Shown: positions 6,401 through 28,400 of the stretch, in pieces | Layout: every line of letters begins with the position of its first letter | Position numbering within the stretch: position 1 is the first letter of the stretch | Program-made: the position numbers and the translations under genes | Source: Branchiostoma floridae | Taxonomy: Eukaryota > Chordata > Leptocardii > Amphioxiformes > Branchiostomatidae | Direction of reading: 5' to 3' | Length of the DNA stretch: 64,000 bases | Assembly: GCF_000003815.2 (NCBI RefSeq) | Contig: NC_049993.1 | Location: 7,295,089-7,359,088, forward strand | Notes under the pieces: model-generated | What the model saw: only the letters and a program-made list of their open reading frames with translations | Told to the model about the DNA's origin: nothing | The model's database searches: none

Positions 6401-9400
6401 AGTCTGCCAGCAGGGTGGGGCTGCTGAGCTCCGGGGCTCCCTCATCCAGGACACTGCCTATTGTGGTAGGGCTGCTTCTTTTGTCTGGTTAAATCCCTAC
6501 TGAGAACAAAACTGATTAATAATTGTTGTTTCATAAAAGAAATAGTAATTGAGAGAAGGTTAGTTACATTCCTTGAAAATGACAAGAGTGTAACAATATA
6601 TTTGATTATGTAAATTAATGACAATGTAGCTATGGAAAACTTTTCTATCTGGAACATCTTTGAAGTCAATATCTTCCAGCATCCGTAAGTTCTATAGCTA
6701 GAGACTGCCAGCATGCTGTATACTATAGAAAAAGAAGTTAAGCTTGACATCCTTGAAGATATAAACAGATTAAAATTGACCACAATGTAATAGAATAATA
6801 CATTGTACCACTAATACTGTATCGGAAATAGAATCATCTTTTCGTCATACTGTACTTGTTAATCTAATTATACTTGATGCCAATTGTTTCGTTTAGGGTA
6901 CAGACTTGGCACCCGGGAGGTACGAGAGGAAGAGTTTTACGGAGGAGCTGTCGGACAGGATCGTGAGCAAACGGGGACCGTACGACCTCTTCACGGGAGA
7001 GCGCAACAAACCCATCACCGTGGGACACTTCGCAGTGCCTGTGAGTCAAGTCATCATTAGAGCTTGGTATTTATGTATCAGAGGATATTTTAGTCCACTG
7101 TGTGGTTGGTAACTTATTGTATTTATTTATTGGTTTGGCTGTTTGGCACACACAGCCAGGGCTGCCCAACTATAATCTCCAAACAGATCCACGGTGCGAA
7201 ATGTATAGTATCAAGATCCACGGTGCGTAATGTATAGTATCAAACTTCCCGTAGGTGTCCGTTTGACTCCCTTGGCCGGCTACACTCCTTGGCCAGCTTT
7301 GATACTATCTTATGGCACCGTAGGATCTGCTTGGAGATTAGCCCAACTAGCCTGTGGACAAGATGGACTACCGTAACCATCATACCAATCTGTACACCAG
7401 ATTTGTAATTATCGCATTGAAGCCACTGTATGCATATTATCTGTTGTCAGTACCTCTCCTAACATGTGACCTCTACAGTAACATCAAACTTGAAAATTAA
7501 TTTCCAAAATGAATTTGTAAATTAATTTTCAGTTTGCCTTATTACTGTCTACTCAGATTTTATCACAGCATCAATGCAGTTTGTCATCATACCATCATGA
7601 CAGTGTTAGTAACTGTAACACTAACAGTAACTGCTCCATGCAACTGCATACATCAAAGCAACAACTAAATTTTCAGCATCATGTTCTAGTACTACATAAA
7701 AGTTGATAGTAGATCAGTTGTGATAGTAGTTCAGTTACTGAATTTCTAATGTCTTCATTACCAGTTAGTGTATTTCTAATGTCCTTAAACATTTACTATT
7801 GTACAGTACCGGTAGGACACATACTACTGCAGTCCTGGTTTGTTCTAGGCAAACGATTATGACAAAATAGGTGACATAATGTGTATTATATGTGTTAAAA
7901 AACACCAGAAAACCACCAACCTGGGCCCTGGCGAGTACGAGCTGAAGAGTTTCCTTGTGAAGTGGGCGGACGAACACAACACGCACAAGGGCAAGTTCAG
8001 CAAGCTCGCCCAGCATCCCAAGATTCCCGGCGACAGGATATACTGCCACACGCTGTCGCAGTGCCCCAGACCTGAGGTAAACAAACAAACAAACAAACAA
8101 ATGATACACCACACTCTAGAGCTGAATCAAGACAGTTACTGTATTTTTTTCTTTGCATTGCAACCTTACACACCACAATTGATATAGATATGCCATTGTA
8201 AAAGAATAATAATGCTGTACAAAGTTTGATATAGACAATATCTTAATAAGCATAGTTGATTTTAGATAGCAGTATAGTATGTAGAGAAAAGATGTAATGT
8301 TGTAGTGTAGTAAGGTTGTCAATCTGATTGTATTTTTCAGTGCAATTCAGTGCATGTGTTTGCGTGCACTGCAAAACTGTAAAAATAATAAACCATCAAA
8401 TCAGGCAGGCAAACCATTCCAACAGAAAATGTGATTTTCCATCCCAACATCTGCTTAGAGATTACTAGTAGTATGTTCACCCAATGCAAATGTGGAACAC
8501 AGCCATCACTATATTTTCTTCTCAAATACCATCAAGATGCACCATATGATTGTGCTGTTTTTTTCCTTCAGTTCTATATGCTTGCTAAATTGCAACTTGC
8601 CAATGAGTAACTTTTGTACCAAATAGACCATTACCTTAATGACAAACATTCATCACCATGTTTTCTTCCTTGTGATTACAGGGGACCCCAGGCCCAGGCA
8701 CACACTCACCCAAAGAGATCCCCACAGCCTCTGCACACCACCTGCCACCCTTCAAGTCTTCTGCTGAGCGCTTCGACAAACGAGCAAATAAGTTCTTCCT
8801 GGGAAGTACAGTAAGTATGACTATATTGTTACTGATGAAAAAGGTCTTATTTGTGCTCAGTTTTCTTTTATGGTATCTTTTTCATTGCTTTGAGTAGAAA
8901 ACGTCTGGGACTTTGTTAGTAACTGTTGAATGAATTCTAGTGACAGTAACAGTCATTGTTCCAGAATTGCCTTTTTTTACTTCACAATACTCTTACAGTT
9001 CATCATTGGTCAATACAGTCGTGAATTATGAAAGGAATCTTAATTGGTAGTTTCTACAAAGATTTATCACCTATCAATTTCCCTTCCCAGAATCCTGTAG
9101 GCCCAGGGCGGTACGAGGTACGACGGTGGGAGCGCGCTCAACACGTCAACGCCAACAGTAGTGTCTTCAACTCCAAGACATCACGGCAACAGAGCCTGGA
9201 CAGGAAGAAATTCATGAAGTGAGTCGCTTTTAACATTTTCAAGCACAGTAAAAAAGATGTAATGATAGACATTAAATTTGCAACAAATTACAATGTAGAT
9301 GCAGGTCAAGTAGAAGTTATACATTTTTATAGAAAAGCATTTGCAACTTATTGTGCCTTTCACACTGTTGTTTTATTGTTGACAAATGTAAATATATGAA

Positions 9401-9686
9401 ACAATATTTCATTGAAATGCAGGACATATACATGTATTTATGTTTCTATGAAGGAAAGCTGTAACTGTAATTCAGTGTTATCATTTCCAAATATCATTTT
9501 TACTCCAATTTAGTTTTTCATAAGACACAAGTCCATTTGCATTTCTGACCATCAACATTTTTTTACAGTGAGAGAATCCGAATGAAGGATGTACGTGTAC
9601 CAGACAGAGTCTTCATCGTAGAACCACAAACACCTGATACGTACCTGATGAACATGAACCAACCACAGGCCATCGCTGTAGCTTAG
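442..9686 (+). CDS. CIMAP2: CIMAP2/LEXM-like ciliary microtubule-associated protein with seven STPG repeats
   Basis: Ten exons join in frame: 442-491, 4692-4779, 5275-5451, 5810-5938, 6325-6465, 6897-7040, 7909-8076, 8682-8810, 9091-9218, 9569-9686. The product is 423 residues, close to the roughly 410 expected of vertebrate LEXM. The N-terminus (MAKKNFTGAPFG, then RFDVAAVHP and GTFTQVPYDK) has the family signature. Seven GPGxY-type repeats follow, one per exon: LGPGVY, LGPGTY, PGPGTY, LAPGRY, LGPGEY, PGPGTH and VGPGRY. STPG proteins bind the lumen or surface of axonemal microtubules in cilia and sperm tails; LEXM was also named for lymphocyte expansion in mouse. The start is the first ATG, directly before the conserved N-terminus. 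A poly(A) signal follows 17 bases after the stop. The last exon was partly copied to 16527 by the tandem duplication. Every intron is GT-AG. I am sure of the family; exact ends rest on splice reading. Confidence 0.93.
492..4691 (+). other. Long first intron of CIMAP2 (4.2 kb)
   Basis: The sequence between coding exons 1 and 2 holds only short AT-rich open frames with no recognisable protein similarity. Apart from a candidate X-box near its 5' end I see no gene, RNA or clear transposon. Its length, against 0.3-0.9 kb for the other CIMAP2 introns, leaves room for regulatory elements. Confidence 0.6.
1006..1018 (+). promoter_or_regulatory. Candidate RFX X-box in CIMAP2 intron 1
   Basis: The 13-mer GTTGCCAGGGAAC matches the degenerate X-box consensus RYYNYYN(1-3)RRNRAC at every position. 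RFX factors bind such motifs near the start of ciliary genes, and this one lies about 560 bases after the start codon of a ciliary gene. The match is seen; the function is inferred, and a consensus this loose also occurs by chance. Confidence 0.35.
7171..7341. mobile_element. MITE-like inverted-repeat element in CIMAP2 intron 6
   Basis: The left end (TAATCTCCAAACAGATCCAC) is nearly the inverted complement of the right end near 7322-7341 (GGATCTGCTTGGAGATTA). The left arm contains a local direct duplication of about 29 bases that repeats the CACGGTGC and TAGTATCAA motifs. No coding capacity is seen. It fits a short non-autonomous DNA transposon. Confidence 0.65.
8079..8101. repeat. (AAAC)n microsatellite directly after a splice donor
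   Basis: Five to six units of AAAC start within the donor region of CIMAP2 intron 7, two bases after the GT. The donor reads GTAAAC, so the repeat forms part of the intron's first bases. Confidence 0.85.
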
Positions 9687-9702
9687 TTGTAACAACAATA
9701 CA

Positions 9703-9708
9703 AATAAA
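9703..9708 (+). terminator. CIMAP2 polyadenylation signal
   Basis: A canonical AATAAA lies 17 bases after the CIMAP2 stop codon. Another AATAAA near 10097 and one near 10386 could give longer 3' ends. Confidence 0.6.
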
Positions 9709-9978
9709 ATTGTTACAACAATTTTGTAAGGAATTGTTGAATAATGTTGATAGTACACGTAGTCTGTAATATTGTCTCCATCCATTTCACACCTGCAATG
9801 TGAATATCTGAGTCATCGTGTTAAACTACACAAGGATGTATCTGAATGAAAAGAGGTTATTTTTACATTGTTGAAATATATCTGTACAAACGATGAAACA
9901 GAGTAGAATGCTGCTACGGGTTTCAAAGTTATTGCTGCTAATGACTGACAGTGAAAAAAGTGAACATAATGAGGCGTA

Positions 9979-10076
9979 TGAAATATTTTGGTACAACTTT
10001 TATATCCAGTCTGAAAATACAGGTGAATGAAATATTTTGGTACAACTTTTATATCCAGTCTGAAAATACAGGTGAA
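9979..10076. repeat. 49 bp direct repeat, two copies
   Basis: Two adjacent, essentially identical 49 bp units begin TGAAATATTTTGG at 9979 and 10028 in the 3' flank of CIMAP2. The paralogous region near 19730 holds only one degenerate copy, so the doubling probably followed the segmental duplication. Confidence 0.85.
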
Positions 10077-10487
10077 CAATTGTCTTCTGTTAAGAAATAA
10101 AAGAATTATGTTTCTTTAATATAACCGAAAAATTTGACATCAAAGCCACTACTAGGTGAATTCTGGGAAAGTGGTATTTGAAATACCAGAGGAATGTTTG
10201 GAGTGTAAAGCCATTGTTTTATGTTGTTGTGTGCTTTTGCTGCTACATACAGTAGAGACTAGAGATATCATCATATACCATCTGTAAATATATAAGACCT
10301 AGTCCAATAGTATTGTTCATTGCTTCTCAATTTCTTTGTGGCAATGAACTGTTAAATACTGTCCCTTTTCAATGTTTTGCGGGAAAATAAAGACTTCTTG
10401 TAATAATCACAAACCCTCATGTGTACAGTGTGCTTAATGGGCTTGAAAGATTCTTTCCTAAAATTCCAATCTCTGTGAAGACGTAAT

Positions 10488-10571
10488 GCTAGTTCACCTT
10501 TATCAGTCCAAGGGCCAACCAATATCCATTGTTTTTGAACACAGGGTATTGGTTGATAAAGATGAATTAGC
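10488..10571. mobile_element. Short MITE, GCTAGTTCACCTTTATC family
   Basis: An 84 bp stretch with imperfect inverted ends (GCTAGTTCACCTTTATCA against its complement on the right) and an internal palindrome around the CCAATATCC and GGTATTGG arms. The same end sequence appears in the larger element at 62875-63099. Where the paralogous copy continues near 20345, this insert is missing. Confidence 0.6.
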
Positions 10572-10820
10572 TTTATCAGTCATTGGCTTGTGACAGCTGC
10601 AGGCACATGTAGTAATAAACATCATAGCACAAGGATCCCAAGTTTTGACACATCATATTGTAATTATCCCAGAACAGAAGGGAAGGGAGGAACAGGTATG
10701 GTCAACTTTTTTGCCTTAGACAGCAATTTTTAAGTTTTAATCAAATTGACACATAAATATGCAAAAAAAAATTTCATTTGCAATTATTCTAGATGCAAAT
10801 GTACACTATAAAACATCATA

Positions 10821-11331
10821 GAGGACATCATTCAGATACATGTAGATTGCAAAAGACTGCAAGTTGGTAACAGTAAAAGACTGCAAGTACCAAGAGGACA
10901 TCATTCAGATACATGTAGATTGCAAAAGACTGAAAGTTGGTAACAGTAAAAGACTGCAAGTACCAAGAGGACATCATTCAGATACATGTAGATTGCAAAA
11001 GACTGAAAGTTGGTAACAGCAAAAGACTGCAAGTACCAAGAGGACATCATTCAGATACATGTAGATTGCAAAAGACTGAAAGTTGGTAACAGCAAAAGAC
11101 TGCAAGTACCAAGAGGACATCATTCAGATACATGTAGATTGCAAAAGACTGAAAGTTGGTAACAGTAAAAGACTGCAAGTACCAAGAGGACATCATTCAG
11201 ATACATGTAGATTGCAAAAGACTGAAAGTTGGTAACAGCAAAAGACTGCAAGTACCAAGAGGACATCATTCAGATACATGTAGATTGCAAAAGACTGAAA
11301 GTTGGTAACAGCAAAAGACTGCAAGTACCAA
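10821..11331. repeat. 73 bp minisatellite, seven copies
   Basis: The motif starting GAGGACATCATTCAG recurs at 10821, 10894, 10967, 11040, 11113, 11186 and 11259, exactly every 73 bases; a broken eighth start lies at 11332. Units differ at only a few positions, for example GTAAAAG versus GCAAAAG. Each unit holds two related halves (GCAAAAGACTG and GTAAAAGACTG), so it may have grown from a shorter repeat. It lies about 470 bases downstream of the ZNF copy 1 stop codon and is absent from the paralogous flank of ZNF copy 2. The rest of the 9687-11798 spacer shows nothing else recognisable beyond the listed repeats. Confidence 0.95.
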
Positions 11332-11798
11332 GAGACATCAGTCAAAATCTCTTCATACCTACATTCACTATTTCACTTTGTAAACATTTTGTCATCCCAA
11401 TTTGATAAACAAATGTATTGAACAAATAATGGTTTCATCTATTAAACAGGCCAAGTACATGTCATATGCCCTCTAATAGTCTAAAGAAAAGTTTTCAAAA
11501 TTAAAAATCAAAATCTCAGACACTCAATCATACAAAAAGGGAGTGGAGCAAACATTTCCTCAAAACACTTGTAATAAGGGACTGCTGTTGCTAGTACATT
11601 TAGTAGTATTAGCTTTAGTTTGACATGAGTGTGTTTCTGAAGTATAATCCTAGTCCAAACCAGTGTGAAGGAGAAGTATAGATAGGATTAAATCTAGGAT
11701 ATAATATACCACAGTAATGGTATATCAGATCAGTCTATTTATATTATCTTTGCTGTCCCATAATAGACAATGGGCTCCGTTCGTATTGTACATGTACA

Positions 11799-14700
11799 TC
11801 AGGTGAAGACTTCAAGTACATTATAGTCAAGTTGTACTGTCTCTGTCTCTCCAATGATCAAATTCTGTATGACTGAAGCAGCTGCATTTCCTGACTCTTG
11901 GGAACCATGCTCCATGTTCATGTGTCTGTTACTTCCTGTGTCTTGGGAACCATGTTCCATGTTCATGTGTCTGGAAAATCCTAACTCTTGTGAACCGTGT
12001 TTCACGTTCATGTGTCTGGTCAGGCCATACTGACGAATGAACCGCTGGCTGCACACCTCACACTTGTAAGGTTTCTCACCTGTGTGAGAGCGCTGGTGCC
12101 TCTTAAGAGCACCCAATTTTCGGAATGCTTTGCAGCAGTCCTCACACACAAAGGGTTTCTCCCCATGAGATTTCATGTGTCTCTTCAGATCACTCCGCTT
12201 ATTGAACTGCTTGCTGCACTGCTCACACTTGTGGGGTTTCTCCTCTGCGTGGTTCCACATGTGACACGCGAGATCACCCTTCCGATGGAACTGCTTGCTG
12301 CACTTGTCACACATGTAGGGTTTTTCCCCCGTGTGAAGCATTCTGTGCTGGTTTAGATGACGTTGATTATAAAACTGCATTTGGCACGTCTCACAGCTGT
12401 AATGTTTTTCCCTGGGAAGTCTGGGACCATGAGTCTTTAGGTGAACGTTGAGACTATCCAACAGACGAAACTGAGAGCCACATTTCTCACAGACAAAGGG
12501 TTTCTCCCCAGAGTGAGTTGACTTGTGCCTCTTCAAATTAGCCAGCCGACTGAACTGCTTGCTGCACTCCTCACACCTGAAGGATCTCTCCCCTTGGTCA
12601 CTGCACACGTGTGACTTCAAATCAACTGGCGTCTTGAACTTTCTTTTGCACTCCTCGCAAATGTATCTGTTCTGGGTGTAAGGTTTCTCCCCTGTGTGAG
12701 TGCGCATGTGAATCTCCAAATTCCACCGGCTGCAGAACTGCTTGCTGCACTCCTCACACCTGAAGGGCTTCTCCACTAAGTGAGTCAGCAGATGTTGATT
12801 TAGATGCTTTTGCTTCAAGAACTCTTTGCTGCACTGCTCACAGCTGTACAGTTTCTTCCCTGTGTGAGCGTACATGTGCTTCTTCAGATCACTTGGCACA
12901 CTGAACACACTGCTGCATTCTTCACATTTGTATGGCTTTTCCCTTATGTGAATCTGCATGTGTCTCCTCAGATGGGGCTTGCCACTGAACTGCTTGCTGC
13001 ACACCTCACACCTGTACGGTTTCTCCCCTGTGTGAGTGCGCATGTGACTGTTAAGACTACGAGAATCAATGAACTGCTTGCTGCACACCTCACACCTGTA
13101 CGGTTTCTCCCCTGTGTGAGTGCGCATGTGACTCTTAAGATTACGAGCATCACTGAGCTGCTTGTTGCACACCTCACACCTGTAGGTTTTTCTTTCCCCT
13201 TTGTGAGTGAGCTTGTGTTGCTTTAGGACCTTCAGATGCATGAACTCCTTGCTGCACTTCTCACACTTGTAAAGTTTTCCCTCTGTGTGAGTGTACATGT
13301 GTTTCTTCAGATCACTTGGCGTGCTGAACTGACTGCTGCATTCCTCACACTTGTAGGGCTTTTCCCTTGTATGAGTCTCCTTGTGTTTCTGCATATTGCT
13401 CCAGTCACTGAACTGCTTGCTACACTCCTCACAGCTATAGGGTCTCTCCTTTGTGTGAGTGCGCATGTGTATCTTCAGATTTCCCCGGGTACAGAACTGC
13501 TTGCTGCACACCTCACACCTGAAGGGCTTCTCTACTAAGTGAGTCAGCAGATGTCGATTTAGATGCCTCCGATCCAAGAACTCTTTGCTGCACTTCTCAC
13601 AGCTGTACAGCTTCTTCCCTTTGTGAGCATACATGTGCTTCTTCAAATCACTTGGCATACTGAACTCACTGCTGCATTCCTCACACTTGTATGGCTTTTC
13701 CCTGGTGTGAATTGTCATGTGTCTCTTCAGATCACGCTTCTCCCTAAACTGCCTGCTGCACTCCTTGCAGCTGAAGGGTTTCTCCCCTGAATGAATGAGC
13801 ATGTGATTCTTTAGATGCCATCGCCGACTGAACTGCTTGCTGCACCCCTCACACCTGAAGGGTTTCACCCCAGGGTCTCCCGAATGTCTGTCCTTGGGGG
13901 AACTTTGATCAGATGGTGCTGCTACAGCCTGATTGTCTTCCTTCTGATGCACTTCTGATGAGGATTCCTTGAGCAGAATGAAAGAGAAATCGAACAAAAG
14001 CCAAGTCAAACTCTTATCCATGATATAGCATTGGAAGAAAACCTAGTTATATTTTTTTTAAAGATTTTACGTTCAAATGCTATTCATTTGTAAGTTTAGG
14101 CCACACCAATTTCATTCGTTGCTTCTCGGATTTGGCTGCTAAAAACAATGTCTTTTTTCAGAACATTAGTTCAAAATTAGAATCAAAGGAAGGTATTCAG
14201 GCAGATGTTTTTTGGTGTTATTTAACTTTAAGCCGTGTATCTTCACCCAGACCTTTTGAAAAAATTATCTTTATTTCTTTGGACCTGTCAATCAATTTTT
14301 TTTCAATAATTATAAGCAACAAATAAATTTGGTGTGGCCTTATCAAGACTCTAAGTAGTAAAATTCAATTTACATATACATGTATGGCAATTCACCTCAT
14401 TGGCTGGTGTTACTGAGTCCTGTACTGCTTTTTCATCATCTTCTAAGATGGCTTCATCACCACAGTCATCACTGTCTCCTCCTATCCCATCTTCCATCCT
14501 GTCATCTGATTCACTCTTCTTCTCCATCATTTCCTCCATTCCTCCATTCTGTCTGTTTCTCAGAGAGGGAGAGGGACACATGGTAACAGTTACCAAGGGA
14601 ACCTCCATCACAGACCCTTGCTGTTGAGAGCACTGTGCCAAATTTAAGGAGGAAGTCCTAACAGGTACAGATCTGACTTCACTCTCAGATAGTCTTCTTT

Positions 14701-15313
14701 CTGTGTAGGTATGGTCTCCAGCCAGGTGAACAGAGGTTTTTGCAGAAGAAGCTGTTGAGTGTTGTAGTGCAGCAAAATTTGCTGTGTTACCTGCAGGTAC
14801 CCTGTCAGTGCTTGTAGTTGTATCCATCATGTTTGTGGACCCAGAAATGTTGCCTTCCTCCACCGCTGACCCCTCCCTGTTGGTGTCTTTCATATTCGTC
14901 TGCATATGGGTTTGAGGTTGGGGGGTGGCATTTTGTTGATTTGCTGATCCACTTTCTTGACCATGCTCTTGTGAAGCAGAGTCAATCAGCTCTTCTGAGG
15001 TTATAAGAACTTTTACATTGGTTTCTCCACTCTCGTGCTGTGATCGGGAGTTGAGCGGGTTTTCTGACATAGTTCTGTGTGAGATTTCTTCTTGTCCTCT
15101 TTCATCAGCCTCGCTGTACTCTAATGTCATAAGGTTCTGCAGCAGAGCAACCAGGTTGCGCTTGTCTACGCCCTTTCTGCCTACCTCAATCTTACGCCGG
15201 CGGAGCTCCAACATGACCTCCTCCATGTAGAGCCTGGGCAGCACTGCCAGGGAAACCTCCTTACACAGGCCACACAGGCCTTTGTTGACCAGATCACTCA
15301 GAGAAAAGGCCAT
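11799..15313 (-). CDS. C2H2 zinc-finger protein, copy 1 (about 22 fingers)
   Basis: Two coding exons on the minus strand, 15313-14396 and 13967-11799, join in phase 0 (donor GAG|GTGAAT, acceptor CTCAAG|GAA) and give 1,028 residues. A compact N-terminal domain (about residues 5-70) contains LCKEVSLAVLPRLYMEEVML and a basic ELRRRKIEV stretch. A Ser/Thr-rich linker ends in an acidic run (GGDSDDCGDEAILEDDE). Exon 2 encodes 22 tandem fingers with TGEKP-type linkers from about residue 340. Finger 15 lacks its final zinc-binding His (SHVCSD). The N-terminal domain is not KRAB, SCAN, BTB or ZAD as far as I can judge. The protein is probably a sequence-specific nuclear DNA-binding factor; its targets are unknown. 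A non-coding first exon is inferred: donor at 16085/16086 and acceptor at 15372, both conserved in copy 2. The gene is divergent from a dead WDR83 exon 1. Confidence 0.9.
11890..12030 (-). repeat. 45 bp (15-residue) tandem repeat at the ZNF copy 1 C-terminus
   Basis: Three units, phased every 45 bases (a landmark TTCATGTGTCTG on the plus strand at 11917, 11962 and 12007), encode RHMNxxHGSQ followed by five variable residues. The first unit is the end of the last finger's helix, so the tail of the finger appears to have been copied twice. Copy 2 keeps only eroded versions. Confidence 0.85.
14096..14342. mobile_element. MITE inside the ZNF copy 1 intron
   Basis: The ends are inverted: TAGGCCACACCAATTTC on the left and AAATTTGGTGTGGCCTTA on the right. 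The element fills over half of the 428 bp intron between the N-terminal and finger exons. The same intron in copy 2 (22740-22930) is only 191 bp and lacks it, reading through an AGTTTATC empty site. A TTA or TA target duplication fits. The TAAGGCCAC terminus matches the element at 35087-35609. Confidence 0.8.
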
Positions 15314-16085
15314 GGTCTGAGCAGGGATGAGTACAATTACACCTCAGTTTTGCTGCAGCACCCTGACTTCTCTGTAACACAAACCACACAGTTTACATTG
15401 CAGACTATTGTTTAAACATATTGACAAAGCAAAATATCTGGGCTCTGAGCTTCTCTCCTTCTCTAGAGATTTCTCCAGAGTTTGCATTTAATAGCCCTGA
15501 ATCATGGAAGGCATCTACATTCCAAAGATCATTCTGATCCATCAACCCCTTCACGAGTTATTCCCCTCAAACGTGATGATGCAAGTATGCAGGCGCGGAA
15601 AAATTCCTGTAGAATTCCAGAAATATTCCAGGCTTTTCATTTGACATCATCTGCGCCATGTTGGATTACCTTCAACAAAGGTGCCATTGCTAAATCCGAT
15701 TATCCACTAACATGGTCGCCGGGGGATTCAAATTATAATCATTATGACGTCAATGAATGTCTGTATGCTATACTGTTAGGCAACCCCCTGAGGCGTTGCC
15801 AAAAACTGTTCATTCTGTTGTTTTCTACCAGTACCAGTACAACATACTCTGCCTGTGTGTGCATACAACCTTCCTGAGCACTTACCGTAATACGGTAACT
15901 TCTTTGAGGGCCACACTTTTTCTAGAGGATGTCATCCATATAATCAAATCAACGTAGCCTTCCCTTGATCAAATATTTTCGTGACAGAAACCTTGGTCAG
16001 AGCAAGGAGCTTTTGGTCAGAGAGATATAATTTATGTGACCGCTGAACGTCGCCGAATTCTCAGTGTGTAACGCCTTGAACGTAC

Positions 16086-16365
16086 CTGCAAGTTATCCTG
16101 TATACGACGGTGTCTTAAGTTGGCAATGATGACTTAAAAAGCTCCTCAAAGACTTCTCAGAATCTCAGATTTACACTTTATTTGGTTCCTTGTGTGGACA
16201 TGCTGAAAGTTACGCTTCGTTCTGATCGAACTTCCGGTCACCCGAAGTGGAAGTGTCTGTGGAATTGTGGGTAAAAAAAAACATGGCCGCCCCCTGTGTT
16301 TATTTTCCCGTCTTTTCCGCTGCATTCTTGATATTTCTTTGATTTTTGTGATACATGCAGAAAAT
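16086..16365. promoter_or_regulatory. Bidirectional promoter and 5' non-coding exon of ZNF copy 1
   Basis: Between ZNF copy 1 and the WDR83-like exon lie an ETS-type ACTTCCGG at 16230-16237 and a YY1-type ACATGGCCGCC at 16281-16291. Both are conserved in the copy 2 / WDR83 arrangement. On the minus strand a donor TGCAG|GTACG at the 16086 boundary ends a likely 5' UTR exon, matched in copy 2 at the 24265 boundary. Transcription starts are not visible. Direction and sharing are inferred from the head-to-head layout. Confidence 0.55.
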
Positions 16366-16452
16366 ATGACACCCAAACTCCTAACCAAAGTTGTAAAAGC
16401 TATTGAGTGCAAGCAGGGAGCAGTAAGAGCAGTCAGATTTAATGTCATGTAG
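16366..16452 (+). pseudogene. Dead duplicate of WDR83 exon 1
   Basis: The frame beginning MTPKLLTKVV and ending CKQGAVRAVRFN aligns with the real WDR83 exon 1, whose last 12 residues it shares. The splice donor is lost: the real exon continues GGTATGT, here TCATGT, so the frame runs into a TAG after 28 codons. No later WDR83 exons follow; the sequence leads into a CIMAP2 fragment. It is a by-product of the tandem duplication. Whether the intact promoter still drives a short transcript is unknown. Confidence 0.9.
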
Positions 16453-16526
16453 CAGAATTTCGATGTAGGTAATACACCCCCCTCCCTTTTGATTTGTTTA
16501 CATGCTTCGCAAAATGAGTTTTGTCA

Positions 16527-16580
16527 GTAGAACGACAAACACCTGATGAACCACAGGCCACCGATGTAGCTAATGGCTAT
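16527..16580 (+). pseudogene. Fragment of duplicated CIMAP2 exon 10
   Basis: GTAGAACGACAAACACCTGAT followed by ACCACAGGCC and GATGTAGCTAATG matches CIMAP2 exon 10 from 9618 to the stop region. About 23 bases are deleted between these blocks. The similarity continues through the CIMAP2 3' flank to 16701, stops at the LINE, and resumes at 19654. It marks the start of the second duplication unit. Confidence 0.88.
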
Positions 16581-16852
16581 GTTATGATTTTGCTATGATA
16601 TCGTTACAATCATTTTGTTAAAGTTAAAGGAAATGCAAAATTATGTGAATATTTGAGTTGTGATTTTATACGTCAAGGATATATCTGAATAGAAAAGAGG
16701 TCTATAAGAAAGGGGAACGCTATCGTCCTGAGAATTACAGGCCAATTTCCCTTACCAGTATTCCATGTAAGATAATGGAGCATATTGTTACTAGTACGAT
16801 TATGTCTTATGTAGAAGAAAATGAAATCATATGTAAAGAGCAGCATGGGTTG

Positions 16853-18400
16853 CAGGGCTCATGACTGCGACTAGATTTGGTCGCATAGCGCCTAGATTTT
16901 TAGGAAAGCGACTAGAATAGAAATCTCGGTCGCACGGTGCGACTATAAAAATACAGGCAAAAATTTATGCCTGCGCAAATGTAATGGTTGCAGAACCTTG
17001 GCAGAACCAAGGAGGTTAAAAGCTCAAAGCCGACTCTGAAGAAAACAAAGCTTTACGTTTGTCTACTGGTTGCCTAAACCCGCCCGCTGGCTTTAATTTA
17101 AATACTACAGTCGGAAAACCAAGGCCCCGCCCCATCCCTGCGATCAAATCAACCGGCTAGCAGGCTAGCACGTGCCACATGCTATGGCTGTTCCAAACAA
17201 ATTGCAGCAAATTGCCCCCTATTTCTGGTTTGTTGTGTAACCGGAGACACTCTTGGAACAACTAAAATCTTTCAGTTTTAAGCTTGGCAAGCATGACTTT
17301 GTTGAAAAGAAAATAGAATTGTCCTCTATCCACAATTCACCTGCTCCAATTCAATAACTCCGTAAAAAAACTGAAATTTATTGGAGGGACTTTATATCAG
17401 GGATACATTGTCAGACACACAAACCTTCTGATATATATGGGTAACGATGCTAAAGGTAACAGCCAACACAACGCACTTCAAGAGTTCACAGGGATATCAG
17501 TTTCACAAGCTAGCCAGGCCGGCTCCGCTTCAAAGATAGGGGGCGTGGCTATGCAGTGCATGCAGCCAGTTCATGCATATTGATATATCAGGGGAGGCCA
17601 TACTAATTTTGTCACAACTTCGTAACTTTTCTGATGATTAACATGGCCAGTTTATAATTTTTACGTCTCTAGATAATTTATTCTAGTGTTGCAAAATACA
17701 AAACATGTCTTTTGTGTTTTGGAGAAACATGACTTTCTTAGTTGACAAGCACTATTTTCCCTACTGTATCAAAGTGAACTCTTCTGAACACACCGGGTCT
17801 GGGTTGCCCCTCCCATCTTCCCCCAAAGATTTGCATACTACTATGCAAGGTGAATGACCCGCCGTGCGTGCGTCACTTGAGCAGCCAAACATGGGCTATT
17901 TTCTGTTGACTTAAACGTCGTATTTCACATAGAAATACCGGGACTCGAACTTATGTAATTTTGTTAGGTCTTACATGATAACTTTTTGAATGTAGCCTTT
18001 GCAGAATTGTATTATAGCAGGTGATGATCGCTTGCAGTCCACTTGTTTTGTTGATCGCCGTGAAAACTCTATCAACAAATGTTATTATTGTTGCGTTCTC
18101 GCATCGGACTCTGGTTTTTCTCCATTAACATTTATTCAATATAAAAAAAATGACAAGGTCAAATTCTTTTTTTAACAGGATTGTGCCTTTGTCTTTCACA
18201 TTGTACATTGATACTTTATTCCAGGTCAATTAGAACATTGATAAATAGGAGTACTCACTCACAGTGTCTTGGTAAGGCAAAGACTTTTGCTTGTGCTCCC
18301 CACCTTTTATAGTGGTGCGCCTAGATTTTTGCTGATGCGACCAAGTTTTAGGAGTTAGGAGCACAGCGCTCCTAGGTCAAAAAATTAGTCTGGAGCCCTG
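16853..18400. mobile_element. Non-autonomous DNA transposon nested in the LINE
   Basis: A perfect 8 bp terminal inverted repeat, CAGGGCTC and GAGCCCTG, bounds 1,548 bases. Subterminal motifs also recur inverted (TTGGTCGCAT, GCGCCTAGATTTTT). Removing it restores the LINE frame across GGGTTCAGACG. A 4-5 bp target duplication (GGTT) is possible. CAGGG ends recall hAT elements, but no clear 8 bp duplication and no transposase are visible, so the superfamily is uncertain. Confidence 0.8.
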
Positions 18401-19552
18401 GGTTCAGACGCCGCCATTCCTGTGAAAGCCAGTTACTCGGACTTGTGGATGACTTGTCTGTTGACCTTGAACAGGGGAGACAAACAGATGCCCTGATAAT
18501 GGATTTTAGCAAGGCGTTTGACAAAGTTTGTCACTCCCTTCTCATCCATAAGTTAAACTACTACGGCATCACAGGGTCGCTGCAGACCTGGATCCAGAGC
18601 TTCCTCACTGATTGCCAGCAAGCGGTAGTAGTGGAAGGCTCAATTTCAAGTTTTGTACCAGTAGATTCAGGAGTGCCGCAGGGATCTATTCTAGGCCCCA
18701 CCCTGTTTCTGTTATATATAAACGACCTCCCTACCAGTTTGTCGTCTATTGCTCGTCTGTTTGCAGACGACACCTTGGCACACAAAACTATCAGCTCGAC
18801 TAGGGATCAGGAAGTACTTCAAGAAGACTTGGATCGTCTTGCTGAGTGGGAGCAAACCTGGATGATGAGTTTCCATCCAGACAAGTGCCAAGCACTCCAT
18901 ATCACAAGGAAGAGGGTCCCCCAAACAATGAACTACAAACTTCATGGTCACACTCTTGTCTCAACCAAGGAAGCCAAGTATCTAGGAGTGACAATTACCT
19001 ACAATCTCACTTGGTGTACGCACATCGCAAACATCACCAACAAGGCCAGCAGAACCCTAGGTTTTCTGAGAAGAAACATAAAGGTAGGATCCAAAAAGAT
19101 AAAAAAAACCTTGCTTATGTTACATTAGTCCGACCATTACTAGAATTTGCTAGTCCCGTTTGGGACCCCTATACAGCAAAGGATATAGCGAAGCTCGAAG
19201 CGGTCCAGCGTAGGGCTGCCAGGTGGGTGTCAAACAGGTATCGACGGTCCTCCAGTGTCAGCGAAATGCTTCACGACCTTGAGTGGCCAACACTCCAGGA
19301 GAGACGACGGAGGGCCAGATTGGTCACTTTTTATAAATACCACTCAGGGGATCTGGCTATTAACTGCAAAACGAGTCCCGCTCCACAAGCTAGAAGTTCG
19401 AGATCGACCCATCCCGCAGCATACAAGGTACCGACTAGTAGAACCCAATATAGGCAAAATGCCTTCTTCCCACGTACAATTAGAGACTGGAACGGCCTCC
19501 CAGCGGAGGTGGCGCTATCGCCATCCTTGTCTATGTTTAAATCCAAAATATA
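18401..19552 (+). pseudogene. Reverse transcriptase remnant of the LINE
   Basis: In frame from 18403, the translation shows MDFSKAFDKV, GVPQGSILGP, YINDLP and the catalytic FADD box (LFADDTLAHK). The frame stops at 19126-19128. The continuation (LVRPLLEFASPVWDPYT, VQRRAARWV, IRDWNGLP) lies in another frame from about 19110, after an A-rich run where a frameshift occurred. It is a decayed reverse transcriptase of a non-LTR element. Confidence 0.9.
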
Positions 19553-19653
19553 ATCCCCCCTCAGTCTGCGCAGTGAACCTCTCCATGTTGCCACGGCTGC
19601 AGAATCCTCAAAAAGATGAGGTTGGCAGCCTAACCGAAAGAAGAAGAAGAAGG

Positions 19654-21026
19654 AGGTTATTTTTACATTTACTGTTGAAACATGATGAAACAGTGTAGGA
19701 TGCTGCTATTGGCCAACATAGTGAAAGAGGCATATGAAATATTTTGTTACCTTTTTTTAATATCTCTTATTAAAAAGATACAGGTTTGTCTTATTGCCTA
19801 GAAATAAAAGAGTAAATATTTCTTCAATGTACAAACAGATCTTTGACATCTAAGTCATTGAACTTAATTGGTTATTTGCCTTCTCAGAAGGTGGTATTTG
19901 AAAGGGGTTAACATAGAGATGTTGTGTTGTTTTGCTGCTACATACAGTATATATTTAGTATTTTCTGTAAGGGTGTATAAATACTAGTATACCAGTTCCA
20001 TTAGTAGTGTTTATTGCTTTTCAATTTCTTTTTGGCAAATATTATTGAATTCTGTCCCTTCTTTAATTTTTTGTGAGAAAATAGAATAGACTTATTACAA
20101 AACCTTGATGTGTACAGTCAGAGCCTTTATTAAAGCTCCTTGGTACAGTGTACTTTTTCCCTGCAGTGTTTATACATGCATGGCACAATACTGAAAATAG
20201 ATATATAATGCAATGCAAACACATTTCCAACGCTAATTAACAGACACACAGCCATACAAATCACAAAAATATGTACAGAATATCTTTCTTAATCATAACT
20301 TATGTGTAGTGTACTCTATGCTTACCCAAAATTCCATCTCCGTGGAGATGCAGCAATCTATATTCTGTCAGTCTTCCTCAGGTATTAATAAATACCAAAG
20401 CTGGCTGTTTCTTTTACGTCTGCCAGCTGGCGGACTGGAAGATCAAGAAAATCAAGTGCATCAAGAAAAACAGTCTTTTATTTGCAACAACAATGATATA
20501 ATAATATGACACTCTAGATCTATAACATGGTTTAGGTAGACAGTAAACTATATGTTGGTAATAAACAATCAAACTCAAAATATCTATACCTACATCCACT
20601 AATGCTACAAATGATACATTACAATGGAGGAGAATGTTTTGCATCCGTTTTGTAAGCCCATATATGGCCTCTTTCGGTCAATATCGGTATTGACCATATC
20701 ATACCCAAACATGTGCTAAACAATGTTGAGAAAAATAGAAACACTGACTTCCTGTCACTAATCTGTTGAGCAAAGAAAGTTCTACAAAATCTCATAGTTA
20801 TAGCACAAACATTCAATCCTACAAAAAGTGAACTAAGTGGCATGAACATTTCCTCAAAAAGAAACACTAACACTTGCAAAATAGAATACTACTTGTCCAA
20901 GCTATGAAAGAGAAGTTTGGATAGGAATAAATGTCCAGAGTGATGGTATCTAAAGGATCACTCTATTCTTCCTCCTTGCTGTCCCACAACAGACAATTGA
21001 CCACTTTTGTATAGTGCATTATAACA
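19654..21026. other. Second copy of the CIMAP2 3' flank, downstream of ZNF copy 2
   Basis: Diverged similarity to 9855-11798 can be followed in blocks (GATGAAACAG, GCATATGAAATATTTTG, TTGCTTTTCAATTTCTTT, CCCAAAATTCCATCTC). The 73 bp minisatellite and the 10488 MITE are missing. No gene is seen; short open frames here look random. Confidence 0.75.
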
Positions 21027-23881
21027 TTAGATGATGACAAGTGCATCGTCAAGTGGCACTGTCTCTGACTCTCCAATGAGCTGTAGGAGTGAAGCTGCTG
21101 CATTTCCTGACTCTTGGGAACCATGTTCCATGGAACTTCCTGAGCCTTGGAAACCTTGTTTCATGTTCATTTGTCCGGCACTTCTCGAGTCTTGGGAACC
21201 ATGTTTCATCTTCATGTGTCTGGTGAGGCATTTTTGACGACTGAACGGCCAGTTGCACACCTCACACCTGTAGGGTTTCTCACCTGTGTGGATGCGCCTG
21301 TGTAAGGTCAGAGCAACCAAGTGGTGGAATGCTTTGCAGCACTCCTCACACACGAAGGGTTTCTCCCCATGAGTTACTTCATGTCTTGTCAGATCAGATG
21401 GCTTACTGAACTGCCTGCTGCATTCCCCACACTTGTAGGGTTTCTCTTCTGCATGGATCCTCAAAAAGTGATGCTGGAGATCATTCTTGCGAAGAAATTG
21501 CCTGCTGCACTTGTCACACATGTAGGGTTTTTTCCCTGTGTGAATCATTCTGTGCTCCTTTAGACGATTTGGACAATAAAACTGCTTTTTGCACGTCTCA
21601 CAGCTGTAAGGTTTCTCATTGGAAATTGTGTGAGTCTTTAAGTGAGTCTTCAGACTATACAAATAACGAAACTGAGACCCACACTTCTCACAGACGTAAG
21701 GTTTCTCCCCAGTATGTATTTGCTTGTGTCTCTTCATATTAGACAGCCGACTGAACTGCTTGCTACACTCCTCACACTTATAGGGTTTCTCCCCTGTATG
21801 AGTGCGCTTGTGTGTCTTCAGAGCGAATGCTGTTTCAAAATGGATACTGCACTCCTCACAAATGTGTCTCCTTAGTACGTAAGGTTTCTCTGTGTGGATG
21901 CGCATATGCAACCTCAGATTTGCCTTGCTATTGAACTGCTTGCTGCACACCTCACACCTGTAGGGCTTCTCCCCTGTGTGAGTGTACAAGTGCTTCTTCA
22001 GATTTCCCTTTTTACTGAACTGTCTGTTGCACTCCTCACATGTGTAGTGCTTTTCCCTTGCATGAATAGTCTGCTTGTGTCTCTTCAGATGGCCCTTCCA
22101 ACTGAACTGTCTGCTGCACTCCTCACACGTGTAGGGCTTTTCCCTTGTATGACTCTGCTTGTGTCTCGTTAGATGGCACTTCCTACTGAACTGTCTGTAG
22201 CACTCCTCACACGTGTAGGGCTTTTTCTTTGTACCGGTATGATTAATCTGCTTGTGTCTCTTCAGATGGCCCTTCCCACTGAACTGCCTACTGCACTGAT
22301 CACACCTGTATGGTTTCTCCCCTTTGTGAGTCAGCTTATGTTGCTGTAGAAGCTTTCGATCAATGAACTCCTTGCTGCACTTCTTACACTTATAGACTTT
22401 CTCCTTTGTTTGAGTGCACATGTGTTTCTTCAGATCATTCGGCGTACTGAACTGACTGCTGCATTCCTCACACTTGTAGGACCTTTTCCTTGTATGATGA
22501 ATCTTATGTTTCTGCATACTGCTCAGGTCACTGAGCTGCCTGCTGCACTCCTCACCATTGTAGGGTTTCTCCCCTGTATGAGTGTTGTTGTGTTGATCTA
22601 GGAGACATGGCTTACTCAACTGTTTGCTGCGATCCCCAGGGTGTTTCCTGTGAGGATGTCTGTCCTTGGGGGAGCTCTGATCAGATGGTGCTGCTGCAGC
22701 CTGATTGTCTTCCTTCTGATGCACTTCTGATGAGGATTCCTTGAGCAAAGAGAAATAGAATATAAACATGTCTTAATGTTTTGTTTTTGCTAAGTCTAAC
22801 TTTTATCCATTATACAGCATTAGAACGAAACCTAGTTTGTTTGTTTTTCAGAAGATTTTACATTCAAAAGCTTTGTTTTAGTTTATCAACTCTCAGTAGT
22901 AATATTCAATTTAAATATATAAAAATTCACCTCATTAGTTGGTGTACACCATGATACTGGATCCTGTGCTGCTTCTTCATCTTCTTGTAAGATGTCTTCA
23001 TCACCACAGTCATCACTGTCTCCTCCTATCTCTCTTTCCATCATGTCACCTGACTCCTTCTTCTCTATCATTCCCTTCTTCTTTTGTGAATTCTGTCCCA
23101 TCCTCACATAGGTGGCAGGACAGGTGGTATCAGTTGCCATGGGAACCTCAATTGCAGGCACTTTCTGTAGACAGCCTTGTGCAAAATCCAAGACATAGGA
23201 AGGCCTAACAGTAGTAACAGGTTCAGATCTGACTTTACTCTCAGACAGTCCTCTTTCTGTGGAGGTATGGTCTCTAGCCTTTGGAACAGAAGGTTTGGCA
23301 GGTGAAGTTGTCGAGTGTTGTATTGTAGCAAAGTTTGCTGTGTTACCTGCAGGTACCTTGTCAGTGCTGGTAGTTGTATCCATCATGTTTGTGGACCCAG
23401 AAATGTTGCCTTCATCCACCACTGACCTCTCCTTGTTGGTGTTTTCTTTATTTGTCTGCATATTGTTTGTGGCCTGAGGTTGGGGGGTGGCACATAGTTG
23501 ATTTGCAGACTCCTCCGCACTTTTCATACATATTTCTTGGCCATGCTCTTGTGGAGCAGAGTCAACCAGTTCTTCTGAGGTTATACTAACTTCTTCATGG
23601 GTTTCTCCACTGTCTTGCTGTGGTAGGGTGCAGACTGGGTTTCCTGACCCAGTTGTGCATGTGCTTTCTTGTCCACTTCCATCAGCCTCGCTGTACTCTA
23701 ATGTCATGAGGTTGTGCAGGAAGGTGACCAGGTCGTGCTTGTCAATGCCCTCACTGGTTACCTCAATCTTACGCCGGCGGAGCTCCAACATGACCTCCTC
23801 CATGTAGAGCCTGGGCAACACTGCCAGGGAAACCTCCTTACACAGGCCATGCAGGCCTTTGGTAACTAGAGATATGGGCAT
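21027..23881 (-). CDS. C2H2 zinc-finger protein, copy 2 (about 14 intact and 3 eroded fingers)
   Basis: Two coding exons on the minus strand, 23881-22931 and 22739-21027, join in phase 0 at the same donor and acceptor as copy 1, giving 887 residues. The chosen start (MPISLVTKGLHGLCKEVS) aligns with MAFSLSDLVNKGLCGLCKEV in copy 1; an upstream in-frame ATG at 23965 lies across the probable 3' splice site (TTACAG at 23948) and is rejected. The N-terminal domain is almost unchanged from copy 1, while the linker and fingers have diverged. The first finger region has lost its cysteines, the next has NGEEC in place of the first Cys, and the third ends HMCTQ instead of His-x3-His. The remaining fingers are canonical. 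It is probably a nuclear DNA-binding protein with altered specificity. It is divergent from WDR83, with a foldback transposon in the shared promoter. Confidence 0.9.
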
Positions 23882-24264
23882 GGTGTGGACAGGGTCACAG
23901 GGATGAGTACAACTCAACCACACTTTTGCTGTAGCACCCTGAGGTCTCTGTAACACAAACCACACAGAATTTAGTCCATTGCATTGTTTAAAATCAAATC
24001 ATGCATGTGCGTGTGACGGGAATTCTGGGTTACAATATTCGACTCTGTGAAAGAGATTATACACTGTAGAAACAGGGCTTTGAGCTTCCATCAATCTCTA
24101 CATCTTTGTTCACTTTTACTTTTTAATCATTCAAACAAATAACTTAATAGATATGCCAATTTTTACGGTTGCGGAGAACAAGAACTTTGCATAAAACTGA
24201 GGTCAGAGATTTCCGTGATCGCAGTTCGACACCAAAATCTCGGTGTGTAAGGACCTAAACGTAC

Positions 24265-25464
24265 CTATAGGTTATGCTGGATACAGACGTGTCTTGAGTG
24301 GAGAGTTATGACCTATAAGTTGAGTATAAAACCTTTTAAATCTCAGATTACTCACTTAATAATAATTTTGGCTCCACGTTTGGAAGCAACCCTTGGTTCT
24401 GATCGAACTTCCGGTCACCCGAAGTAGAACGGGACAGTCTTAATACCGGAAAACACAGGAAACCACAGTTAACCACCGGAAACCACCGGAAAACACATGA
24501 AGGAGTGTATAATCTACTTGAATACAGTATGTTTTGATGAGTAAACATGACAGGTCGCTATGTTTTTGCACAGAAATATCTACATATGGGCCCTGGAATG
24601 AAGAAATCGTCAGAAAATGCATGAGACGACGGGCCGGACCGACGCCACCCGGCGGCCATGTTTGTTTGTTTAGCGGGGTCTGATACTTTCACAACAAGAC
24701 AGCTGATATCTACCGAATTTCAGTGCAAAAATCTGTTATATATTGGCATAAATATAATATATATGAATCTACTCTGTTTGTGATAAGAATCTGTTTTCTG
24801 TGTTTCTTAATAAAGCTTGCTTCTTCTAGCCGTCAACGTTACATAATTTTGCACAATCAGCACGTCCAGTCCGCCGGGTGGCGGCGGCGGTCCGGCCCGT
24901 AGTCTTATGCATTTTCTGACGATTTCTTCATTCCAGGGCCATATGTAGATTATTCTGTGGCAAAACATAGCGACCTGTCATGTTTACTCATCAAAACATA
25001 CTGTATTTCAGTAGATTATACACTTCTTCATGTGTTTTCCGGTGTTTAACTGTGTTTTCCTGTGTTTTCCGGTAAAAAGGCTGACCGAAAAATACAACTG
25101 TTTTCAACAGACAAAAAAAACGCCGGGTGGCGTCGGTCCGGCCCGTCGTCTCATGCATTTTCTGACGATTTCTTCATTCCAGGGCCATGTGTAGATTATT
25201 CTGTGGCAAAACATAGCGACCTGTCATGTTTACTCATCAAAACATACTGTATTTCAGTAGATTATACACTCCTTCATGTGTTTTCCGGTGGTTTCCGGTG
25301 GTTAACTGTGGTTTCCTGTGTTTTCCGGTATTAAGACTGACCGAAGTAGAACTGTGCCCGTGGAACTGTGGGTAAAAAACATGGCCGCCCCCAGTAAATA
25401 TTTTCCGTCTTTGTTGCTGCATTTATAGATATTTATCCGATTTCGTGAAACTTGCACAAAGAAG
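24265..25464. promoter_or_regulatory. WDR83: Shared ZNF copy 2 / WDR83 promoter, split by a transposon
   Basis: The ETS-type ACTTCCGG lies at 24407-24414 on the ZNF side and the YY1-type ACATGGCCGCC at 25379-25389 on the WDR83 side, 86 bases before the WDR83 ATG. In copy 1 these motifs are only about 45 bases apart. Here a 910 bp foldback element separates them. A minus-strand donor at the 24265 boundary (CTATAG|GTACG) ends the probable ZNF 5' UTR exon. Confidence 0.55.
24431..25340. mobile_element. Foldback-type transposon with three long arms
   Basis: The left arm (24431 to about 24650) is the inverted complement of the right arm (about 25122-25340). An extra inner copy in the right-arm orientation lies at about 24873-25075. 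Arm landmarks are TACCGGAAAACAC, GACAGGTCGCTATG, GGGCCCTGGAATGAAG and a GC-rich inner end with CGGGCCGGACCGACG. Both flanks carry CCGAAGTAGAAC (24419-24430 and 25341-25352), a 10-12 bp target duplication. The copy 1 promoter near 16243 is the empty site. No transposase is seen. Confidence 0.88.
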
Positions 25465-28400
25465 ATGGCGACTACACTCCCAACTAAGGTTGCAAGAACG
25501 CTTGAGTGTAAGCAGGGAGCAGTAAGAGCAGTCAGATTCAACGGTATGTAGCAGAATTTCATCCTTGGATGTAGGGAATACCCCCCTCCCATTTGATTTG
25601 TTTACATGCATCGCAATGTATGTTTACACGCCTCGCAATATATGTTTCGTTCCATATATCTTGCCTTTGTTAGGATTCCGAAACTGAAGTCGGAATAAAA
25701 TGAAAATCATTTGAATGTTTGGTCTTCATGCCTTGCATTGGTTCAGGAATCGAATATTGCTGAGAACAAGGAGTTTGTAATATATGTAGACCTCCAGTTG
25801 CTCAGAAAGAAACAAACATGACGACACCGGGGATCGAACCCGGGGCGGCGGATTACAAGTCATGACCGCTATCGCTGTCGCCACAAAAGCTGTAGAGCAG
25901 TTGGGCAAGGACGGTAGGCGGTATTTGAACACCACTGTTACAGCAGCACAACAGGTCGAACTTCAGAAAATATGTCTGTTGAAACCCCGTTACCATGTCA
26001 TTGATGGGACTGTGTGATGAAGGTTGTGGTGTGAACGGATCTGAACTCTCGCCTATACTTCAGGCGAATATACAAATGCGAGCTGTTTCTCTAGTAGGAG
26101 TGTCAGACTATTCTGTAGAGAAATGATCAAAGGCTCAAACATTGCTAGATTAGGAAGCTTACTAGTAGGGGTACCACCACCAAGCTAATGTAGGGCTGTA
26201 CTGTAAGTCTGTTACTACATGTCCCACCTACATGTACTTCCCCAGATGATGGGAACTACTGCCTGACATGTGGCAGTGACAAGTCCATCAAACTGTGGAA
26301 CCCACACAAGGGAACCCACATCATGACGTACACTGGACATGGCTATGAAGTCCTGGATGTTGCTGCGTAAGTATCATTGGTTGGTTTATTGAGATACCCG
26401 TTAGCTCAGATTGAGCTTATCTTTCAGGGCTCATACAAATAAAGAAAAACATATATACAAATAAGTAAGTATCATGTTCATAGCTTTTTTCATTGAGTGC
26501 TACTCTAGAATACACTCTGGTGGTGCGAAAAGGGACACATCATCAGTGATGAACCCAGTTTCAGGTCTAATCAGACACCCTCTCCTGGGCGACCCAGCTG
26601 AGGTTGATCATTCCCTGACTTGTGTCCGTGTGGCTTCCACGGCTCCCCATTTATGTGTTTTCTTCTCAGGTCATGTGACAACAGCCAACTCACATCTACT
26701 GGGGCAGACAAGATGGTAATATTATGGGATGTCTCTACAGGGAAGATGGTGCGAAGGTTCAGAGGTCATGTTGGGGTGAGTCTCCTTTGTAATAGAAACA
26801 GTTGTGAATTTCATGTACATTTACATGTATATTCTGTATATGTTAATTAATATTGTTATGTTCCTGTGTGTCATGTAGTTTCGTCCATTTATGAATGTTT
26901 ATAAGGACCACAGGAACAGAAGCTGTAATGTACATATATATTTTTAAGCTAGATTTGAATAAATTCAAAATAGTTCAGAATAATTTTTGATATTATGAGT
27001 ATTTAAAACCTAATGTGTTCCCAACATATTTCCAGCGTGTGAACTGTGTGAAATTCAATGAAGAGTCAACTGTCATTGCATCAGGTATGTGAACACACTA
27101 GGATGGTGCCTCAACTCTTGAGTTGAATTTTTTAAGATGCCCTTTTGCACATTTTCAAGGATAATCTTCTTGAGGACATCTGGACAGAAAGTCGGACAGA
27201 AATTCAGTTCTAGGCCTTGCCAGCAGTTTAGTCCATTTCTTTATGTTATACAAAATTTATAACCACCCCCAACTACTACTAGCACATTTTTTTTGGTACA
27301 CTTAATTCAGAATCTGTACTACGGTACCTGAATCTGTGCAAGATGCACATTGTGAACAGTTGAACTTGATGCAGAGAAGATTTCAGGAATAACCTCACCC
27401 TGTTTCCTATCCAGGATCCATTGACAACACCGTGCGACTGTGGGACTGCCGTGCCAAGTCCAAATATGACCCCATCCAGATTCTGGATGAAGCAAAAGAT
27501 GGAATTTTCAGCATAAAACTATCGGACCATGAAATCCTTACAGGGTCAAGTCTCTTCTCTATTTCAGGAGCTGGATGATGTTTTTGTCACTTTGTCCTTT
27601 CATTCATGTTGCAATTTGAACTGCTAGTATATATGTACATAGTTGCTGCATGAAGTTGTTTGAAGAAATTAATGGAGTTAAGTTGAAAGTTGGTCAGGGT
27701 TCTCTCCAGTGTGCATCTTCTGTCTATGGACATCAAAATCTTCACTACAACCTGCATAATATGGTGCTGGGTGGTATAGACTGGGCGTTGTAACACTGAT
27801 GATTCTTGATTGTGCACTTCAGGTCAGTGGATGGCAGAGTCAGGAGATATGACCTGCATGTGGGAGAACTCCTTGTGGACTACATAGGAAGTATGTGTTT
27901 ATTTCCTTGTTCTGTGAGATACAACTACCAACATGGGCTCATGGAAAATAATGTTCTTTATTGCCGACCAAGATATGTAGAATGTCAGCAGACAATTAAG
28001 TGACCTTCTGTCACATTCCTTAGGGCAATACTGACTGTTTTTTACTGCATATAATACATACAACCATGTGTATGTGACAATCCTTACATTTGTTCAGCGC
28101 TCTGTTAACTCATCCAGCTGTACCAAAGCTTCAGGTGAGATAGCCCTTAAAAAATGAGTACTACAATCCCTTTCATGTTACATCTTTTGTTTTTTCCTGC
28201 TTTTTACCTGCAGGCCCTGTGACCTGTGTGTGCTTCACCAAGGATGGCCAGTGTGTGCTGAGCTCAGCATTAGACAGTACCCTCCGACTGTTGGACAAGG
28301 ACACGGGCGAGCTGCTCGGGGAGTAAGTCAGACTAGCAGGGCTGTTTCCAGGACCTGCCCTTCTGTTCTGGGACGGAAAATGTCTCTCCTCCCAAAAACT

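Follow-up and report, generated by a model that had tools for sequence, protein, structure and literature searches.

The question raised by this locus is how two C2H2 zinc-finger (ZNF) genes, together with stray copies of the edges of both neighbouring genes, came to lie between a SHIPPO-repeat gene and WDR83 in the amphioxus Branchiostoma floridae. The window analyzed is a stretch of 64,000 nucleotides from contig NC_049993.1 (positions 7,295,089 to 7,359,088 of the forward strand, assembly GCF_000003815.2), and all coordinates below are positions within it. A segment of about 7 kb has been duplicated, and it comprises one whole zinc-finger gene and the edges of both neighbours. That a single tandem duplication at the DNA level explains the locus is, in our judgement, nearly certain.

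Results

The duplicated segment forms two direct, adjacent units. The left unit runs from 9618 to 16520 on the plus strand, with its end uncertain between 16512 and 16521, and the right unit runs from 16527 to 25622 on the same strand, with its end uncertain between 25616 and 25622. Self-comparison of the window gave nine collinear plus-strand segments that follow the same order in both units. They pair 9798-9857 with 16643-16701, 9850-9916 with 19650-19708, 10027-10148 with 19734-19857, 10225-10429 with 19920-20118, 11517-11565 with 20806-20859, 11641-13387 with 20883-22594, 14340-15416 with 22883-23992, 16030-16252 with 24209-24429, and 16242-16510 with 25341-25614. The chain spans 3819 of the 6893 bases of the left unit. 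At E<=1e-3 the self-comparison gave 72 matches, all of them on the plus strand, while none of 50 dinucleotide-preserving shuffles of the left unit gave any match at this threshold. An initial annotation had placed two direct tandem units at 9618 to about 16510 and 16527 to about 25612, and the chain and the shuffles bear this out. Its unit ends were correct to within about 15 bases, and the sequence GTAGAAC that starts a unit is found at both 9618 and 16527. The diagonal that it expected in a self dot-plot is present, although it is continuous only with gaps because of the insertions in the right unit described below.

Both breakpoints can be read from the sequence. At the junction (16512..16527), sequence of WDR83 intron 1 runs directly into the last exon of the SHIPPO-repeat gene, as the initial annotation had described, and enters it midway; the alignment and the flank tests agree on this point. 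The junction couples the end of one unit to the start of the other, and the outer flanks are unique except for a weak match right of 25616. The flank left of 9617 matches the other unit at shuffle level (106 of 300 shuffles scored as high), while the weak match right of 25616 was equalled by only 2 of 300, and homology may extend about 10 bases beyond the end first proposed. The homology of WDR83 intron 1 is secure to 16512 and 25616 and possibly continues for about 10 bases more. The outer edge of homology is thus sharp on the left and nearly sharp on the right. A 22-bp tandem repeat (25599-25647) straddles the breakpoint on the WDR83 side. The adjacency of the units, their common orientation and their common internal order are those of a direct tandem segmental duplication. 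Introns and the promoter region were copied, as in a DNA-based copy, with the 5' untranslated region (UTR) intron itself being nearly unalignable.

Each unit contains a zinc-finger gene with a long open frame. All four gene models in this report are manual predictions that follow splice consensus and open frames. In both units the order is the tail of the SHIPPO-repeat gene, the minus-strand ZNF gene and the first exon of WDR83, in agreement with the initial annotation. The left ZNF protein has 1028 amino acids (15313-14396 joined to 13967-11799), and the right has 887 (23881-22931 joined to 22739-21027). The duplication did create a second zinc-finger gene. The last coding exon of the left gene (11799..13967, minus strand) encodes 21 canonical C2H2 fingers. 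That of the right gene (21027..22739, minus strand) encodes 14 canonical fingers plus degenerate ones, the first fingers having lost a Cys or a His. Pfam zf-C2H2 scores are 288.7 bits and 167 bits for the two genes, and both have tandem fingers with TGEKP-type linkers, as expected of C2H2 poly-zinc-finger proteins. The arrays have expanded differently. The left array contains an internal duplication of some five fingers within 12677-13871 (13438-13871 and 12679-13112, 85% identical), and the expansion of the right array differs from it. Predicted 5'-UTR introns lie at 15372..16085 in the left gene (donor CAG|GTACGT, acceptor TTACAG|AGAAG) and at 23948..24264 in the right gene (donor TAG|GTACGT, acceptor TTACAG|AGACC), both on the minus strand.

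The first coding exons encode a conserved N-terminal region. The left exon (14396..15313, minus strand) has 306 codons and no Pfam match, and the right (22931..23881, minus strand) has 317 codons. An N-terminal effector domain (KRAB, SCAN, BTB or ZAD) was looked for in Pfam, and neither N-terminal exon open reading frame (ORF) gave a match at E<=0.1. The first 80 residues had no match at E<=1 in PDB. Residues from about 8 to 70 are strongly conserved between the copies, and residues 15-44 are identical. By eye, the N-terminal region (14396-15313 and 22931-23881) has a helix pattern that recalls a SAP domain.

The divergence of the units is broadly as expected from one event. Eleven aligned segments were treated as non-coding, one of which extends over the coding end of the SHIPPO gene's final exon. 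The Kimura two-parameter distance (K2P) is 0.163-0.284 in nine of the eleven, and it is 0.071 and 0.079 in two short segments of 44 and 67 sites. The amphioxus mutation rate is given as 5.89e-9 per base per generation in PMC12862219, and at this rate a K2P of 0.16-0.28 corresponds roughly to 14-24 million generations. This age is probably low because only alignable sequence is counted.

Both zinc-finger reading frames have evidently been kept under selection. In simulations of neutral drift at 0.11 per lineage (300 for each gene), 12.5 stop codons were expected in the left frame and 10.7 in the right, with minimum counts of 4 and 2, and both frames are open. Twelve fingers were paired between the copies by position and linker in order to estimate nonsynonymous (Ka) and synonymous (Ks) divergence. 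Ka is 0.04 at structural positions, 0.25 at other non-contact positions and 0.43 at DNA-contact positions, where Ks is 0.30 (48 codons). Positive selection at the contact residues was considered since Ka exceeds Ks there, but it was not accepted because the tests are weak. Between the copies, 24 of 48 contact residues differ, and of the remaining non-structural positions 64 of 156 do so (Fisher p 0.32). The contact-position Ka is equalled or exceeded in 173 of 2380 position sets, and Ka minus Ks in 115 of 2380. In the first coding exon, Ka and Ks are 0.114 and 0.192 for the first 72 codons and 0.241 and 0.223 for the rest (NG86), and 0.230 and 0.169 overall (YN00).

Insertions make the right unit more than a simple copy of the left, and each unit has gained its own transposons. 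A 241-bp miniature inverted-repeat transposable element (MITE) lies in the left ZNF intron (14099..14339), with GGCCACACCAA terminal inverted repeats and a TTA target duplication, and its empty site is at about 22883 in the right unit. We take it to be PIF/Harbinger-like. The right unit alone contains a long interspersed nuclear element (LINE) of about 2.95 kb (16704..19655, plus strand) with a reverse transcriptase domain (RVT_1, 92 bits). It is interrupted by a nested element (about 16852-18399) with GGGTT on both sides. The left unit has the empty site of the LINE at about 9860, and no target duplication could be clearly made out for the LINE. The right unit also holds a 912-bp inverted-repeat element (24431..25342), presumably Mutator-like, with ends GGGACAGTCTTAATACC and GGTCAGTCTTAATACC and a 10-bp target duplication, GAAGTAGAAC. 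Its empty site is at 16244-16253 in the left unit. It carries three copies of an arm of about 220 bp (two inverted arms at 96% and a third at 87-90%) and its own YY1-like motif, GGCGGCCATGTT, at 24651, next to the WDR83 promoter region. These reciprocal filled and empty sites record independent histories after the split. Between the SHIPPO and ZNF genes of the left unit, a 73-bp tandem repeat occupies 10820-11344 (7.2 copies, 98% alike), and the tandem-repeat listing has no matching array in the right unit.

The ZNF gene and WDR83 are arranged head to head in both units, and the region between them may act as a bidirectional promoter. The left copy of this region (16230..16291) has an ETS-like site, ACTTCCGG, at 16230 and a YY1-like site, AACATGGCCGCC, at 16280. 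Both sites are also present in the right unit, at 24407 and 25378. The two sites are separated by 50 bp in the left unit; in the right unit the 912-bp element has come to sit between them, and the distance is 971 bp. Therefore the unsplit putative promoter faces a dead WDR83 exon, and the split one faces the working WDR83.

With each end of the unit lying within a gene, the outer neighbours stayed intact and the junction-side copies of their edges became debris. The left neighbour (442..9686, plus strand) has 10 coding exons in one open frame with a GT-AG chain and encodes 423 amino acids. Its last exon (9569-9686) contains the start of the left unit. It had been named CIMAP2, and this holds only to the level of a SHIPPO-repeat protein (Pfam SHIPPO-rpt, 35.4 bits with a cut-off of 20); the protein had no PDB match at E<=0.01. 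The right neighbour (25465..30423, plus strand) is complete, with 9 coding exons and 305 amino acids, and its exon 1 (25465-25543) is inside the right unit. The name WDR83 is supported along the full length, as residues 4-303 of 305 match PDB 9s2f chain WD, "WD repeat domain-containing protein 83", at 470 bits. Both neighbours are complete outside the junction.

One dead exon is left from each neighbour, as had been proposed. The copy of WDR83 exon 1 in the left unit (16366..16443, plus strand) cannot be spliced as in WDR83 because the donor GT is altered (AATGTCATG compared with AACGGTATG), and its frame is open for 28 codons. The fragment of the last SHIPPO exon in the right unit (16527..16575, plus strand) shows an internal deletion and no longer has the stop codon. 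It has no acceptor within the unit because the exon was cut in the middle. A chimeric WDR83/SHIPPO gene at the junction was considered and rejected. The WDR83 copy lacks its 5' splice site and stays open for no more than 28 codons, and the terminal SHIPPO exon copy lacks an acceptor. With damage on both sides, no chimeric protein gene is expected there.

Two other features were observed farther along the window. A 162-bp tandem repeat lies at 33523-34057 (3.3 copies, 87% alike). A minus-strand ORF at 40177-40530 has a RhoGAP domain (71.5 bits) and probably represents an exon of another gene that lies downstream of WDR83.

Discussion

The locus is best explained by one duplication followed by independent decay. 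The duplicated DNA ran from inside the last SHIPPO exon, through the minus-strand C2H2 ZNF gene and the head-to-head promoter region, to a point just inside WDR83 intron 1, and the new copy was set beside the old in direct orientation. The ZNF gene was copied in full, and its introns and promoter region came with it; the new gene could thus probably be expressed from the start. Afterwards both ZNF genes kept their long ORFs and came to differ in finger number, while each unit gained its own transposons. Retroposition was rejected, because introns and the promoter region were copied (the coding intron and predicted UTR splice sites are in both copies). Transposon capture by the inverted-repeat element was rejected, as both of its ends fall within the right unit and the left unit has the empty target site. 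LINE-mediated recombination was rejected as well, since the LINE is inside the right unit only.

Several observations weigh against so simple a history. The nine-segment chain leaves out 45% of the left unit. One part of this remainder, the beginning of the finger exon (to 14081), does align through overlapping matches, and the rest includes the left-only 73-bp repeat, the MITE and stretches without a detectable partner. The 5'-UTR introns are nearly unalignable (715 and 318 bases, with a best local match of 40 bases). Ks is uneven, at 0.215 in the first coding exon (95% interval 0.15-0.28) and 0.50 in the twelve paired fingers (0.34-0.71), and these intervals do not overlap. Identity reaches 96% over the initial 84 bases of the finger exon. 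Across the 1209 aligned sites that take in these bases and the first coding exon, identical positions are clustered (longest run 60, p 0.01), and the observed sum of squared runs was reached in none of 2000 shuffles. Local constraint, gene conversion, or mispaired or exchanged fingers may account for the uneven divergence.

A different concern is that the two units are haplotypes of one locus placed end to end by the assembly. High heterozygosity favours haplotig errors of this kind, and the window has one N gap (29683-29782), but the gap is outside both units. Amphioxus heterozygosity is 3.2-4.2% (PMC12862219), but the units differ by about 15-24% in nine of the eleven non-coding segments, which is several times this value. 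Each unit also has its own transposon insertions, and of the two edge copies of each neighbour one is intact and the other decayed. Given a K2P of 0.16-0.28 in these nine segments and the reciprocal filled and empty transposon sites, misassembly is extremely unlikely. It is also very unlikely, if slightly less so, that one of the ZNF genes is a pseudogene and the duplication mere debris. The degenerate first fingers of the right gene are in line with this, as is a Ka/Ks near 1 between the first coding exons (0.97, 95% interval 0.71-1.35). However, the right gene retains 887 open codons, 14 canonical fingers and its splice consensus, where 10.7 stops would be expected under neutrality.

The tandem duplication itself could have begun in more than one way. 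Repeats promote rearrangement, and unequal crossing-over between repeats at the breakpoints would have a candidate in the 22-bp tandem repeat on the WDR83 side; any longer homology may have decayed. However, the 201-bp windows around the breakpoints share only an 11-bp low-complexity match, which is at shuffle level (score 17, shuffle mean 16.1, p 0.30), and the LINE and the inverted-repeat element are in one unit only and are younger than the duplication. Unequal crossing-over is therefore an improbable origin. Because the breakpoints share no sequence beyond chance, non-homologous end-joining or replication-based joining is the likelier initial step.

The DNA-level duplication is real and is ordinary in kind; duplication of poly-zinc-finger genes is a well-known route. 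According to Emerson and Thomas (2009, PMC2604467), poly-C2H2 genes of mammals and of other lineages have duplicated repeatedly and diverged in function. As in that family, a multi-finger gene has been duplicated, and the copies here also differ in finger number. The same text reports a strong concentration of change at DNA-contact residues, whereas here it is weakly raised, and unlike those families this pair has no Pfam effector domain at the N-terminus. Tandem duplicates are commoner in B. lanceolatum than in vertebrates according to PMC9673378; zinc fingers have 0 occurrences in its main text. A term search of PMC10547256 found no mention of amphioxus or tandem duplication. Among the papers listed in literature searches, nothing on this locus was found by title and abstract opening, which is not proof of absence in print. 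The putative promoter region resembles the mammalian NRF-2/YY1 bidirectional promoters reported for pairs such as PREPL-C2ORF34 (PMC2713978), in that ETS-like and YY1-like motifs lie between head-to-head genes. In contrast to that promoter, the present one is predicted from motif matches, and one copy has a 912-bp element between the motifs.

The locus may be useful as an example of how zinc-finger genes multiply. A tentative and rather doubtful extension is that the pair belongs to a lineage-specific poly-ZNF family, in which the N-terminal region would be an undescribed effector module that multiplies together with a bidirectional ETS/YY1 promoter, as KRAB-ZNF genes do in vertebrates. If this were true, the locus would be a natural experiment, with one promoter copy whole beside a dead WDR83 exon and the other split by a transposon beside a working gene. 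Apart from this, a tandem duplication at a late stage of decay is cleanly readable here, with its breakpoints, dead edges, a retained gene for a likely transcription factor and reciprocal transposons all in one window. It leaves the known picture of the process unchanged, and it might be used for teaching or calibration, as a case of ZNF genes that multiply together with a shared promoter region.

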